This document shows, piece by piece, positions 1,274 through 44,514 of a stretch of 60,333 nucleotides of DNA (position 1 is the first letter of the stretch; every line of letters starts with the position of its first letter). Position numbers and translations under genes: made by a program. The notes under the pieces are model-generated. The model made no database searches and was not told where the DNA came from. It saw nothing but the letters and a program-made list of their open reading frames with translations. This DNA comes from Actinomycetota bacterium (GTDB lineage: Bacteria > Actinomycetota > Geothermincolia > Geothermincolales > RBG-13-55-18): contig JABLXL010000028.1 in assembly GCA_013178005.1 (NCBI GenBank), positions 2,501-62,833 of the forward strand, in the 5' to 3' direction.

Positions 1274-2449
1274 ATGAGGGTCGCGCTGTTCCAGTTTTCC
1301 GCCAACGCCACGGGGAAGGTCGCGGCGGTCTTCGAGCACCTCCTCGCGCTTTACCTCACCAACGGGCTGGAAAGGGCGGCGCGCCTGGAGGTGGTGGACC
1401 TGCACCCACCCGCTCGCGAGGGCGAGGTTCTCTCCCTGGTGGCCTCCCACGACGCGGAGGACGTAAGGGCGGCCGCGGAACGCGTCTCCGCCGACATATG
1501 CCTCTGGGGAGACCTGCATTTCGGGCCGGAGGGGGAGTACATGATCACCGAGGTGAAGGTGTCCCTGATGATGGGCTTGGCGGGGGCGGAGTCCGAGGTT
1601 CGCCGCGCCGACTTCGTATTCGGCGGGCTGCGTGGAGACGCGAGGAGCGGCGAGATCGAACTGGACCTCTCCGCCCTGGAGGACATGGTGGAGGAGATGC
1701 TCCTGGCCGTGGCGGGCTTCGCAAGCCTCGACGAGTCCTCCCTTGACCTTTGCAGGATAGGGGACGGCATGCCCCGAGCCGACGGAGCCGCGGTCTATTT
1801 CATCTACGCTTTGCGCATGGTCACGGATCCCGCCATGAAGCTGAGGTTCTACCTCAAGGCCATCGCCGCGGACCCCTACTTTCCCCTCGCCTACACCAAC
1901 GCCGCCCAGTTATTGCTGGGAGAAAGAAAGCATGGCGAGGCGTTGAAATTGCTCCTCAGGGCCGAGGCGCGACTGAAGGGCGGGGAGTTCGAGCCCGACA
2001 TCCTGAACCTCGCCGGGGTCGCCACCATGCACATGGGCATGTGGGACGACGCGGTTAGGTTGTGGGAGCGGTCCCTGGAGCTGAGCCCGGGACACGTGGA
2101 GACGCTCTGCAACCTGGCGGCCGCGTACGCCATGCGGGAGCTCTACGATGAGGCCGAGGAGTGTTACCGCGCCGCGCTTTCCAGCAGGAACGACTACCCG
2201 TTGGCGTGGTTTTCCCTGGGAAGGCTGCAGGCGCGCCGCGGCATGCACGAGGAAGCCGAGGCCTCCATGCGGCGCTACATCGAGCTCTGCCCCGGCGACC
2301 CCTGGGCTTATTACATCCTGGGCACGAGCCTCTCCCGGCAGGGGAGAGAGGCGGAGGCGGAGTTCTCCCTGGGCAAGGCGGCGCAGCTCGACCCCGACGG
2401 CGAAGCCGGAGCCCTGGCCAGGCGCGAGCTCGAGGAACTCAGGGGCTGA
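1274..2449 (+). CDS. Tetratricopeptide-repeat protein with an unassigned N-terminal domain
   Basis: A 391-residue protein in two parts. Residues 1-150 form an alpha/beta-looking domain. It contains ADICLWGDLHF followed by a beta-rich segment, a pattern loosely like the N-terminal domain of TolB/FlgO-type or cyclase-associated TPR proteins; I cannot name it. Residues about 200-385 carry at least five TPR units with the W/LG/Y/A/P spacing, for example NLAAAYAMRELYDEAEECY and SLGRLQARRGMHEEAEASM. There is no signal peptide or membrane segment, so it is probably a cytoplasmic scaffold. The frame is open further upstream to 1181. I chose the ATG at 1274 because a GAGAGG lies just before it and the preceding residues are Cys/Gly-rich and look non-coding. 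It converges on the leftward crotonase gene 36 bp downstream. Confidence 0.7.
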   Translation: MRVALFQFSANATGKVAAVFEHLLALYLTNGLERAARLEVVDLHPPAREGEVLSLVASHDAEDVRAAAERVSADICLWGDLHFGPEGEYMITEVKVSLMMGLAGAESEVRRADFVFGGLRGDARSGEIELDLSALEDMVEEMLLAVAGFASLDESSLDLCRIGDGMPRADGAAVYFIYALRMVTDPAMKLRFYLKAIAADPYFPLAYTNAAQLLLGERKHGEALKLLLRAEARLKGGEFEPDILNLAGVATMHMGMWDDAVRLWERSLELSPGHVETLCNLAAAYAMRELYDEAEECYRAALSSRNDYPLAWFSLGRLQARRGMHEEAEASMRRYIELCPGDPWAYYILGTSLSRQGREAEAEFSLGKAAQLDPDGEAGALARRELEELRG

Positions 2450-36004: not shown

Positions 36005-36246
36005 GGAGGCCGCCCGGTTTCGGGTCCGCCGTGGAGTGGAAGCGGAGACACCGCAAGGCCTTGAAAGCGCCTTTCGTTTGGAGAGGGCGGGAAACAACCC
36101 TCCCGGTCCAGGCAAAGCAGGCGGAATGGGCGTGGCAAAGACGTTTGCTTCCAATCCCCGGGAGGAGGGTGGGGATACGGAGCCAGTCTATGTCGACGCG
36201 GAACGGACATGGTGATTGAGACAAAGGTAATCCATCGTGAGGCGAG

Positions 36247-36276
36247 TTGAAGCAGGGAGGCGCCCTGGGCTATACT
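36247..36276 (+). promoter_or_regulatory. Promoter of the pyrG leader transcript
   Basis: TTGAAG (36247-36252) and TATACT (36271-36276) with an 18-bp spacer. The predicted start is near 36283. Confidence 0.5.
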
Positions 36277-36282
36277 GTACGC

Positions 36283-36397
36283 GTAGGAATACGGCGGTGA
36301 TGAGAACGGGAGGTGACCGGCTATAGACGAGCCGGAGGAATCCCGAGTGAGAAACCAGGACGGAATCCCTGACCGGTAGGGATTCCGTCTCTTTATA
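36283..36397 (+). ncRNA. Putative 115-nt leader RNA or small RNA upstream of pyrG
   Basis: Bounded by the promoter ending at 36276 and the terminator ending about 36397. It contains a CCGGCT/AGCCGG hairpin (about 36318-36335) and two identical GGAATCCC segments, at 36337-36344 and at 36362-36369. Either can pair with GGGATTCC in the terminator 3' arm (36379-36386). Pairing of the first copy would break the terminator, so an attenuation switch controlling CTP synthesis is possible. It matches no riboswitch class I can recall. Confidence 0.45.
36359..36397 (+). terminator. Strong intrinsic terminator upstream of pyrG
   Basis: A perfect 12-bp stem, GACGGAATCCCT with AGGGATTCCGTC, a 7-nt loop, followed by TCTCTTTAT. 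It precedes pyrG by about 160 bp. Confidence 0.75.
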
Positions 36398-36553
36398 GAG
36401 AATTAAGATAAAGGCTGTGGCCGTGCTATATACGTGAAAGACTAGGGGCATGATCGCAGCCGTCGCGCTTAGCGAATGCCGTTATCGCAGGTGCGTGGAG
36501 CCGCCCTGGGGTCCGGGGTCAAAGGAAGCTATGGAGACGGGAGGTATGAAGTG

Positions 36554-38194
36554 ATGCCGGTGAAGTACATTTTCGTGACGGGGGGCGTGTCGTCCTCGCT
36601 GGGTAAAGGGATCACGGCGGCATCCATCGGCAGGCTCCTCAAGTCACGTGGCCTGAAGGTGACCATGCAAAAAATGGACCCTTATATCAACGTGGACCCC
36701 GGCACCATGAACCCCTTCCAGCACGGTGAAGTGTTCGTGACCGACGACGGCACCGAGACCGACCTCGACCTGGGCCATTACGAGCGCTTCGTCGATGAGC
36801 ACCTGGGAAGGGAGAATAACGTAACCACCGGCAGCGTCTACTGGTCCATCATCTCCAGGGAGCGCAAGGGGGAGTTTCTCGGCGGCACGGTGCAGGTAAT
36901 CCCCCACGTGACCAACGAGATAAAGGAACGCATCCTCCGGCTCACGCGCTCCAGTGAGGTGGACGTGGTGATCACCGAGATCGGTGGGACGGTGGGGGAC
37001 ATCGAGAGCCTCCCCTACCTGGAGGCCATCCGCCAGTTCAAGAAAGACGTGGGCCCGGAGAACGTCATGTACATCCACGTCAGCCTGGTTCCCTACCTGG
37101 AGACAACCAAGGAGATGAAGACCAAGCCCACCCAGCATAGCGTGAAGGAGCTCCGCTCCATGGGTATCCAACCCGACGCCATCGTATGTCGCTCCAAGGA
37201 GCCCATCGGCGTGGACCTCAAGGACAAGATATCCCTGCTCTGCGATATCGACATCGAGGGCGTGATCTCCGCCCCTACCGCCGATTGCATCTACGAGGTG
37301 CCGCTGCTGCTGCACGCGGAGGGCCTGGGCGATTACGTTGCGAAGCACCTTGGCCTGGAGGGGCATGAGGAGGACCTCTCGGACTGGGAGGAGATGGTGC
37401 GAAGGATAAAGTCCGCCGCCGAGAGGGTGAGCATAGGGGTGGTGGGGAAATATGTGGACCTCTCCGATGCCTACCTGTCCATTATCGAGAGCTTGCAGCA
37501 CGGCGGGTACGCCCACGGAGCGCGGGTGGAAATCTCCTGGATAGCCTCGGACGACATCACCAGGGAGAACGCCGGCGAGCTGCTCTCCGGCCTCGACGGC
37601 ATCCTCATACCGGGCGGCTTCGGGGTGCGCGGCGTCGACGGCAAGGTGGAGGCCATCCGCTACGCGCGCGAGAACCGCGTGCCCTTTTTCGGCATCTGCC
37701 TTGGTTTGCAGTGCGCGGTTATAGAGACGGCCAGGAACCTGTGCGGCCTGGAGAAGGCCAACAGCTCGGAGTTCGACCCTGCCACGCCCCATCCGGTCAT
37801 CGACCTGTTGCCCGGGCAGCGAGACGTGGACGAGATGGGGGGCACCATGCGGCTGGGGCTGTATCCCTGCAAGCTGCAGGAAGGCAGCCTCGCCCATTCC
37901 TGCTACGGCGAGGAGGTTATCTACGAGCGCCACCGCCACCGTTACGAGGTGAACAACCATTACCGCAGCCAGCTGCAGGAGGCTGGACTGATCTTCTCCG
38001 GCCTTTCGCCGGACGGCAGGCTGGTGGAGATCATCGAGCGCAGAGACCATCCCTGGTTCCTGGCCGGACAGTTCCACCCGGAGTTCAAGTCCCGTCCCAA
38101 CCGTCCCCATCCCCTGTTCAGGGATTTCGTGGGCGCCGCCCTGGAGCGCAAGGCGGAGATGGAGGGGAAGCCGGACCTCAAGGTCGTGGGCTGA
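36554..38194 (+). CDS. pyrG: CTP synthase
   Basis: 546 residues, full length. The N-terminal synthetase domain opens with [17 protein letters not shown] (P-loop), followed by [20 protein letters not shown]. The C-terminal class I glutamine amidotransferase has the nucleophile Cys in [14 protein letters not shown] and the His/Glu pair near [11 protein letters not shown]. It makes CTP from UTP, glutamine and ATP. The ATG at 36554 lies 9 nt after GGGAGG; the open frame starting at 36476 is shorter on evidence. A terminator and possible attenuator upstream suggest pyrimidine-dependent control. Confidence 0.96.
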
Positions 38195-42738: not shown

Positions 42739-43114
42739 CGGGAGAAGGACCATATATAATAATGGGAGGAAAGCGAGGGCGGCATGTCGACGGGGCGCAT
42801 ACCGTCCGTATCTTGTTCGCATGCCCCGGGTTCGACTGTTATTAAACGAAGGAATATGGGAATATTGCGAGTAACCAATTATGGGGAAGCCTCTAGCGCA
42901 GGCGACTTGTCCTGCGCCACATGGAGGAACGGAAGAGGAATGGCTCGTAGAGCGCTGAGAGTGGCTAATTCCAGAATCGTGTGCGCGACCTAGAGATGAT
43001 CGGTCCCGGAAAAGGGCGGGCGCAAGGCGGCGCCGGCAAGCATGCATAGAGCCCATCCAAGAACCGATTTTATAAAAGGCGACGGTATCAACAGGAATAG
43101 AAAGGGAGGTGATA

Positions 43115-43132
43115 GATGGTACTCAAGGGTTG
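43115..43132 (+). CDS. Five-codon mini-ORF in the radical SAM leader
   Basis: ATG-GTA-CTC-AAG-GGT-TGA (MVLKG) is preceded by GGGAGGTGATAG at optimal distance, better than many real starts here. It ends 29 nt before the ATG of the radical SAM gene, which has its own GGAGG. It could be a regulatory leader peptide that tunes initiation of the downstream gene, or simply fortuitous. Confidence 0.3.
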
Positions 43133-43161
43133 AAACAGCGGAGGGAAAGGAGGTGAAAGGA

Positions 43162-44514
43162 ATGCCGGACGTATCGATGATCAGGGATTACGCGATTAAG
43201 AAGACCATTAATGGCTTAATCTTCGTTCTTCCCAATATCCCCGACGACAAGCTGCTCTCCTTCGCGGAGAAGTTCGTGAGCGGCGTGAAATGGCCTGACG
43301 GGCAGGAGTTCCTGCGCTCCCTGATCCTTCAGATCAAGAACCGCCTGCCCGACCTGCACAAGAACGTGCGCCGCGGGGCCATCAATTTCCTCACCGACGC
43401 ACTGTTCTATAAGGCCAGGTTGAGGGAGGCGTTCGAGAAGGAGCACGGCTTCAGCCCGCCGCTTCTTTTGGTAATAAGCCCTACCATGCGCTGCAACCTC
43501 AAGTGCGTGGGATGCTACGCGGGCATGTATTCAAAGAAAGACGATCTGCCCGTGGAGGTCCTGGATCGCGTACTCACCGAGGCCAAGGAGATGGGCATCT
43601 ATTTCATCGTCATCTCCGGCGGCGAGCCCTTCTCCTACAAGCCTCTGTTGGGCATATGCGAAAAGCATCGGGATGTCACCTTCCAGGTCTACACCAACGG
43701 CACCCTGATCGACCGCGGGCTGGCGGGAAGGATCGCGGAGCTCGGCAACGTCATTCCCTGCATCTCGGTGGAGGGATACGGCGAGGAGACCGACGCCAGG
43801 CGCGGCAAGGGCGTCTACGACAAGGTGCTGCGGGCCATGGATAATCTGAAGGAAGCCAGGGCCCTTTATGGGTTCTCGGCCACGGTGACCCGATTCAACT
43901 CGGACCTCCTCACCAGCGAGGACTTCGTGGACTACTACATGGACGAAAAGGGGTGTTTCATCGGCTGGTACTTCCAGTACATGCCCATCGGCACCCGCCC
44001 CTCCTTGGAGCTTATGACCACCCCGGAGCAGCGCATCCAGCGCCTGGAGCGCGTCACGCGCATGCGCAAGGAGAAACGGGCGCTGATCTCCGATTTCTGG
44101 TGCGACGGGCCTTTGGTGGGGGGCTGCCTGGCTGCGGGTCGCCAGTACCTGCACATCAACCAGAACGGGGACGTGGAGCCCTGCGTGTTCGTGCACTTTG
44201 CGGTGGACAACATAAAGGAGAAGTCCCTGACACAAGTGCTGGAGTCGGATTTCTTCCGCTCCATCCGCGAGCGCGCCCCCTACCATCCGAACCTGCTCCG
44301 CCCCTGCATGGTCATCGACCATCCCTACGTGCTCAGGGAGTGCGTGGAGAAATGCGGGGCTCGTCCCACCCACCCGGAGGCGGAGGGCATCATCACCGAC
44401 CTCGCCCCCGACCTCGACCGTTACGGGGAGGAGTACGGGCGCCTGGCCGATCCCATATGGGAGGAACGGTACCAGGATACGGCGGTGGAAGTGAAGAGGC
44501 TGCATTCCGCCTGA
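43162..44514 (+). CDS. Radical SAM/SPASM-type protein
   Basis: 450 residues. The first 100 residues form a helical lead (DKLLSFAEKFVSGVKWPDGQ). The radical SAM cluster is C111, C115, C118 in SPTMRCNLKCVGCYAG, followed by VISGGEPFSYKPLL and VYTNGTLIDRG. The C-terminal part has CDGPLVGGCLAAGRQYLHIN, NGDVEPCVFVHFAVDN and a Cys pair near LRPCM and CVEKCG, as in SPASM auxiliary-cluster proteins. It resembles peptide-modifying or hopanoid-type enzymes but no substrate can be read. ATG at 43162 follows AAAGGAGGTG. Monocistronic, with a terminator 18 bp after its stop. Confidence 0.85.
   Translation: MPDVSMIRDYAIKKTINGLIFVLPNIPDDKLLSFAEKFVSGVKWPDGQEFLRSLILQIKNRLPDLHKNVRRGAINFLTDALFYKARLREAFEKEHGFSPPLLLVISPTMRCNLKCVGCYAGMYSKKDDLPVEVLDRVLTEAKEMGIYFIVISGGEPFSYKPLLGICEKHRDVTFQVYTNGTLIDRGLAGRIAELGNVIPCISVEGYGEETDARRGKGVYDKVLRAMDNLKEARALYGFSATVTRFNSDLLTSEDFVDYYMDEKGCFIGWYFQYMPIGTRPSLELMTTPEQRIQRLERVTRMRKEKRALISDFWCDGPLVGGCLAAGRQYLHINQNGDVEPCVFVHFAVDNIKEKSLTQVLESDFFRSIRERAPYHPNLLRPCMVIDHPYVLRECVEKCGARPTHPEAEGIITDLAPDLDRYGEEYGRLADPIWEERYQDTAVEVKRLHSA

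Follow-up and report, generated by a model that had tools for sequence, protein, structure and literature searches.

Promoter, leader and terminator of pyrG in an actinobacterial order: a probable transcription attenuator that may be relieved by leader translation

Introduction

What does a terminator-like hairpin do between the promoter of pyrG and its coding region? The question arises in the window, the whole stretch of 60,333 nucleotides of Actinomycetota DNA that was analysed, where the gene for CTP synthase lies behind such an arrangement. Two ways of controlling pyrimidine genes in their leaders offer themselves for comparison. In Escherichia coli pyrBI, relief of a terminator by the ribosome is established (PMC5021804); for Bacillus subtilis pyrG, and probably for Streptococcus agalactiae pyrG, control involves added G residues (PMC4448216). 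A preliminary description of the locus considered CTP-responsive attenuation of another kind, or else a small RNA of about 115 nt. The overall explanation favoured here, with a probability of roughly 0.5, is an attenuator of pyrG that is relieved by translation of the leader, low CTP being the presumed signal.

The relatives compared are 17 order-level genomes, namely 15 from the family of the window and one each from two other families of the same order (f2 and f3). Genera within the family are labelled g1 to g6, and individual loci carry L-numbers. Statistics on the leader motif are based on 13 family members from five genera; the two g3 genomes do not have the motif. Judged by pyrG, the closest named genomes are those of Candidatus Solincola, together with Actinomycetota MAGs, and Candidatus Geothermincola represents a sister family.

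A conserved unit upstream of pyrG

The features of the locus are collected in Table 1. Taken on its own, the promoter is weak evidence, as it matches at 9 of 12 positions and 0.5 such sites are expected by chance per 3.5 kb. The same −10 hexamer, TATACT, with a TTG-initial −35-like element 17–18 nt before it, occurs in the same place in 17 of 17 relatives, which bears out the promoter-like pair of the preliminary description. The predicted transcription start in the window is at about 36283. Each of the 17 genomes also has a leader and an intrinsic terminator between this promoter and pyrG, the arrangement that an attenuator of the pyrBI type requires.

Table 1. Features of the pyrG leader region (window coordinates).
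Feature	Position	Strand	Details
Promoter TTGAAG-18-TATACT	36247..36276	+	−35 36247-36252; 18-nt spacer; −10 36271-36276
Leader hairpin P1 enclosing P2	36307..36345	+	minimum free energy fold
P1 arms	CGGGA 36307-36311 / TCCCG 36341-36345	+	
P2 arms	CCGGCT 36317-36322 / AGCCGG 36330-36335	+	
Extended Shine-Dalgarno sequence GGAGGTGA	36309..36316	+	best-conserved leader element
Candidate leader peptide frame	36323..36379	+	AUA start, 18 codons, TAG in terminator loop
GGAATCCC copy 1, previously proposed antiterminator arm	36337..36344	+	3' side of P1; not conserved
Intrinsic terminator	36359..36397	+	perfect 12-bp stem 36359-36370/36378-36389; U-tract to 36397
pyrG (CTP synthase), controlled gene	36554..38194	+	SD GGAGG 36540-36544

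When the 556-nt intergenic region is used as a query, alignments within the family cover query positions 256–399 (window 36260–36403) and leave the flanks unaligned; sequence conservation thus runs from the −10 box to just beyond the terminator and then ends. The adjoining gene is pyrG at every family locus found. A covariance model (R1), searched against 396 genomes of the phylum, gave strong matches only in the family of the window and in f3, and the weak matches inspected elsewhere are not at pyrG. Among the loci examined in three other families of the same class (f4, f5 and f7), none showed a comparable pyrG leader, and no second good copy of the leader, sought as a repeated element, was found in the genome. 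Rfam 15 yielded no match, either at the gathering score for the window or at E ≤ 10 for the leader, which agrees with the earlier impression that the leader carries no known riboswitch signature.

In the window, pyrG starts 164 nt past the terminator stem, close to the 160 bp first noted. In eight relatives (from g2, g5, g6, f2 and f3) only 54–66 nt lie between the end of the hairpin and the pyrG start codon. This leaves little room for another promoter, so that transcription has to pass the hairpin to reach pyrG. The promoter–leader–terminator unit at pyrG is real, and it very probably acts as a conserved transcription attenuator of this gene in the order. Of the two functions envisaged in the preliminary description, attenuation is much the likelier; the short spacers speak against a small RNA.

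Further upstream, the stretch between recN and the pyrG promoter (window 36005–36246, 240 nt) holds several inverted repeats. Its folding is barely above that of shuffled sequences (z −1.25), and alignment of the intergenic query found no conservation of this stretch in relatives.

The terminator and the proposed two-copy switch

The perfect 12-bp stem of the terminator is confirmed, and its arms GGAATCCC/GGGATTCC are invariant in all 13 family members. Compensatory changes are seen in L034, where the A–U pair at the base of the stem becomes G–C, in f3, where the outer G–C is replaced by A–U, and in f2, where an inner A–U is replaced by G–C; the terminator of g3 is an unrelated hairpin. The U-tract of the window, TCTTTATA, is weaker than the TCTTTTTA of most relatives, and a simple terminator scan reported the window hairpin on the minus strand only.

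The preliminary description drew attention to two identical GGAATCCC segments, which are indeed present, the second at 36362–36369, and proposed that pairing of the first copy with the 3' arm of the stem would prevent termination. In the genome of the window this pairing does exceed that of shuffled leaders (p ~0.003). Across the relatives, a clear excess over shuffled leaders is confined to g1 (p 0.003 to 0.05) and L035; the pairing is marginal in L032 and f3 and absent in g4, g5, f2 and g3, and an antiterminator of this kind common to the family was therefore rejected. Copy 1 is intact in three of 13 family members, mutated (to TGAATCCC or GTCATCCC) in four and absent from six, and no pair of the helix between copy 1 and the 3' arm is altered on both sides. 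The two-copy switch fails the covariation test because copy 1 is not conserved and shows no compensatory change. Pairing of the leader with the 5' arm of the terminator, the other way to form an antiterminator, never went beyond chance.

The terminator was also considered as an element shared with other loci and dismissed as such, the remaining exact matches lying in coding frames or in one lone hairpin in genome G014. On contig 95 of G014 (L134:291–318) there is a second GGAATCCC/GGGATTCC hairpin with no pyrG behind it. It comes after a gene end that resembles the gene end 5' of pyrG in the same genome, and perhaps represents a duplicated segment.

An extended Shine-Dalgarno sequence with an AUH start

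The most conserved element of the leader, which the preliminary description missed, is a Shine-Dalgarno (SD) sequence followed by AU(A/C/U), or AUH. The family alignment gives the motif G(A/G)GGTGA(C/G)CGG-NN-AT(A/C/T); the start-like codon is ATA in 11 of the 13 carriers, ATC in one and ATT in one, and in all 13 it lies 9 nt past GGAGG. A pattern search of the draft genome did not recover the 3' end of 16S rRNA; the anti-SD sequence is assumed to be that of the usual 16S tail, to which GGAGGTGA is complementary. The same GGAGGTGA precedes ordinary genes in the window, at 43162 (+) and 11469 (−), in the latter case with an identical nine-base spacing to the start. A search with the exact motif pattern recovered pyrG in ten family genomes and seven scattered matches elsewhere.

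In 13 of 13 members a frame beginning at the AUH codon stays open as far as the terminator loop or beyond the hairpin, compared with 5/13 for a GUG inside the SD sequence and 1/13 for AUH+1. That GUG, with its VTGY/VSGH frame, was rejected as a start: in 8/13 the frame stops short of the hairpin, and the frame lacks a separate conserved SD sequence. The distance from AUH to the terminator arm is 35–39 nt in 12/13. By shuffling, the product of the per-sequence probabilities for all 13 frames being open is ~0.0015 if they are independent and ~0.03 for six representative lineages; with these modest values, and three frames looked at, the statistic is suggestive only. Relatives without the motif also have frames that cross the hairpin, with starts at AUG on the predicted +1 position in both genomes of g3, at SD–AUG in f3 and at SD–UUG in f2. 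An open frame after an SD sequence or at the predicted 5' end is accordingly found in 17/17 relatives, and 13 of these begin with AUH. On sequence grounds the frame is a candidate for translation. The peptide differs between genera and gives no coding signature, which fits a system that needs only the act of translation.

Two other occurrences of related sequences were noted. At window 43105–43164 there is a tandem pair of GGAGGTGA sites, the first followed by a five-codon frame (ATG GTA CTC AAG GGT TGA) and the second by the start of a radical-SAM-like gene; a tiny upstream frame before this gene is possible. A stretch of ~235 bp is nearly identical in two genomes of one genus (G097 and G275) in different surroundings (L156 ~1328–1565, plus strand, and L157, minus strand). 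It ends in GAGGTGAGCGGTTATAGAAGAAG, which is similar to the pyrG leader motif, is not at pyrG, has no Rfam match and is possibly a mobile repeat.

Proposed mode of action

A strong ribosome-binding site combined with an unusual start codon suggests that a translating ribosome probably decides whether pyrG is read. Involvement of the ribosome in attenuation is given slightly less than even odds, and sensing of CTP through polymerase pausing is a more tentative proposal. Transcripts would begin at the TATACT promoter and, unless something intervened, would tend to end at the hairpin ~115 nt on. A ribosome would load on the extended SD sequence and initiate slowly at AUA, AUC or AUU; once it enters the terminator stem, the stem would be unable to form. 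Scarce CTP would make RNA polymerase pause at C residues (those of UCCC, both in the leader and in the 5' arm of the terminator); this delay would let the slow-starting ribosome load and draw level, so that pyrG is read. In g1, g2 and g6, the P1/P2 hairpin encloses both SD and AUA and probably competes with ribosome loading. The UCCC pause-like sequence is absent in g3. Three features are left unexplained by this model: the conservation of the terminator arms, which goes beyond the needs of a plain terminator; the TA preceding GGGATTCC, retained in L034, L027 and f3 although it has no partner there; and a conserved AGAAT-like sequence directly after the U-tract.

AUH starts are weak, and the AUA of g1, g2 and g6 sits inside a stable hairpin. 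In Staphylococcus aureus, AUA and AUU starts (infC, ccpN, cvfC1) have extended SD sequences, as established experimentally, and the non-AUG sites tested there reach about 10–30% of AUG activity (PMC13009471). The likeness to infC, ccpN, cvfC1 and citZ lies in an extended SD sequence with AUA or AUU that is kept among related species, and in reduced initiation; those sites start protein genes, whereas the present one opens a short frame in the leader, ahead of a terminator (PMC13009471). A further refinement, in which the AUH start rescued by an extended SD sequence serves as a slow kinetic timer that loads in time only under low-CTP pausing, is doubtful.

Alternative explanations

A riboswitch, in which P1/P2 and a GGUGA internal loop form a ribosome-free aptamer for CTP or perhaps another nucleotide, is unlikely. 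The 115-nt leader folds better than 200 of 200 shuffles (z −3.97) into a stable two-stem structure beside the terminator, its non-helical bases are highly conserved, and P2 exceeds chance in g1, g2 and g6. It does so only there, and P2 was rejected as a family-wide structure for that reason; P1 and P2 are broken in most g4 and g5 cells of the alignment, although SD–AUH is kept in them. Five of the six P2 pairs show no two-sided change. A covarying aptamer structure common to the members, by which a new riboswitch would be recognised, was not found, and the missing family-wide antiterminator and Rfam match also count against an aptamer.

Less probable again is a protein that causes or prevents termination by binding to either the GRGGUGASCGG element or the terminator. 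Conservation of both elements in sequence rather than structure would suit such a protein, and so would the unpaired but conserved TA preceding GGGATTCC. However, the first element is exactly an extended SD sequence, correctly spaced from a codon that resembles a start; no protein is known as a candidate, and the PyrR elements of Rfam gave no match.

A stand-alone small RNA of ~115 nt acting in trans would have its own promoter and terminator, and a terminated leader may well accumulate, but this is very unlikely for a unit that always lies directly 5' of pyrG, as little as 54–66 nt away in the eight relatives above, with a single good copy in the genome. Attenuation of the Bacillus type, through CTP-sensitive addition of G residues to the 5' end, can practically be discounted: gene and promoter–terminator layout are the same, and the pyrimidine-rich UCCC of the 5' arm continues into the loop of L031 and L034, yet the start regions are variable in the alignment, with no GGGC and no conserved G-run followed by C, just as the preliminary description had noted for GGGC slippage.

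Relation to known pyrG leaders and other systems

The leader translation favoured here has its nearest counterpart in pyrBI of E. coli, another pyrimidine gene, where the pyrL leader frame extends into an intrinsic terminator and a ribosome that follows closely suppresses termination (PMC5021804). By analogy the pyrG leader may work like pyrBI, with the differences that the gene is pyrG, that CTP would take the place of UTP, that the start is mostly non-AUG and that a long U-run pause region is lacking. With the slippage attenuators of Bacillus and Streptococcus pyrG it shares a terminator in the leader and an expected response to CTP (PMC4448216); here, in contrast, there is no GGGC start, and sensing would take place downstream of initiation. 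The uORF candidates of ilvB and fthC described in PMC11109978 likewise combine a hairpin leader, a purine-rich SD sequence and a uORF reaching the terminator, but have AUG starts and a logic of amino-acid codons or initiator tRNA, and belong to unrelated genes.

The same source cites a pyrG-associated motif as an example whose exact mechanism is non-trivial to predict; the present leader may overlap this motif (PMC11109978, Supplementary Figure S5). Several pyrG leaders of Clostridia (L064:2829-2910, L065:2804-2887, L075:2868-2949, L076:2797-2858, L077:2813-2897 and L081:2740-2800) share a hairpin GCACCC/GGGTGC-CCTG and a terminator GGTCACCC/GGGGTGACC. In these leaders, which have no Rfam match, an antiterminator can form, as a longer or a shorter helix, between GGGTGCCCT(GCC) and (GGT)AGGTCACCC; the leaders might be the published motif. 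In three other Actinomycetota MAGs (L071, L073 and L079), a shared GCTTGGGACGACTTCCCCCC ... GGGG(G)GTCGTC lies within ~150 nt 5' of pyrG; one G-run is close to a possible start, and a C-run could pair with a later G-run. This is possibly yet another type of pyrG leader.

Implications

In Firmicutes, pyrG is known to be controlled by slippage attenuation, and a deep actinobacterial order seems to own a separate attenuator of this gene. The leaders of pyrG are more diverse than the catalogues suggest, since Clostridia have a different, uncatalogued leader with terminator and antiterminator. Within the present order, an AUA, AUC or AUU leader start is kept in every one of the motif carriers, across five genera; if the proposed mechanism is confirmed, a metabolite sensor would owe part of its working to the very weakness of a start codon.
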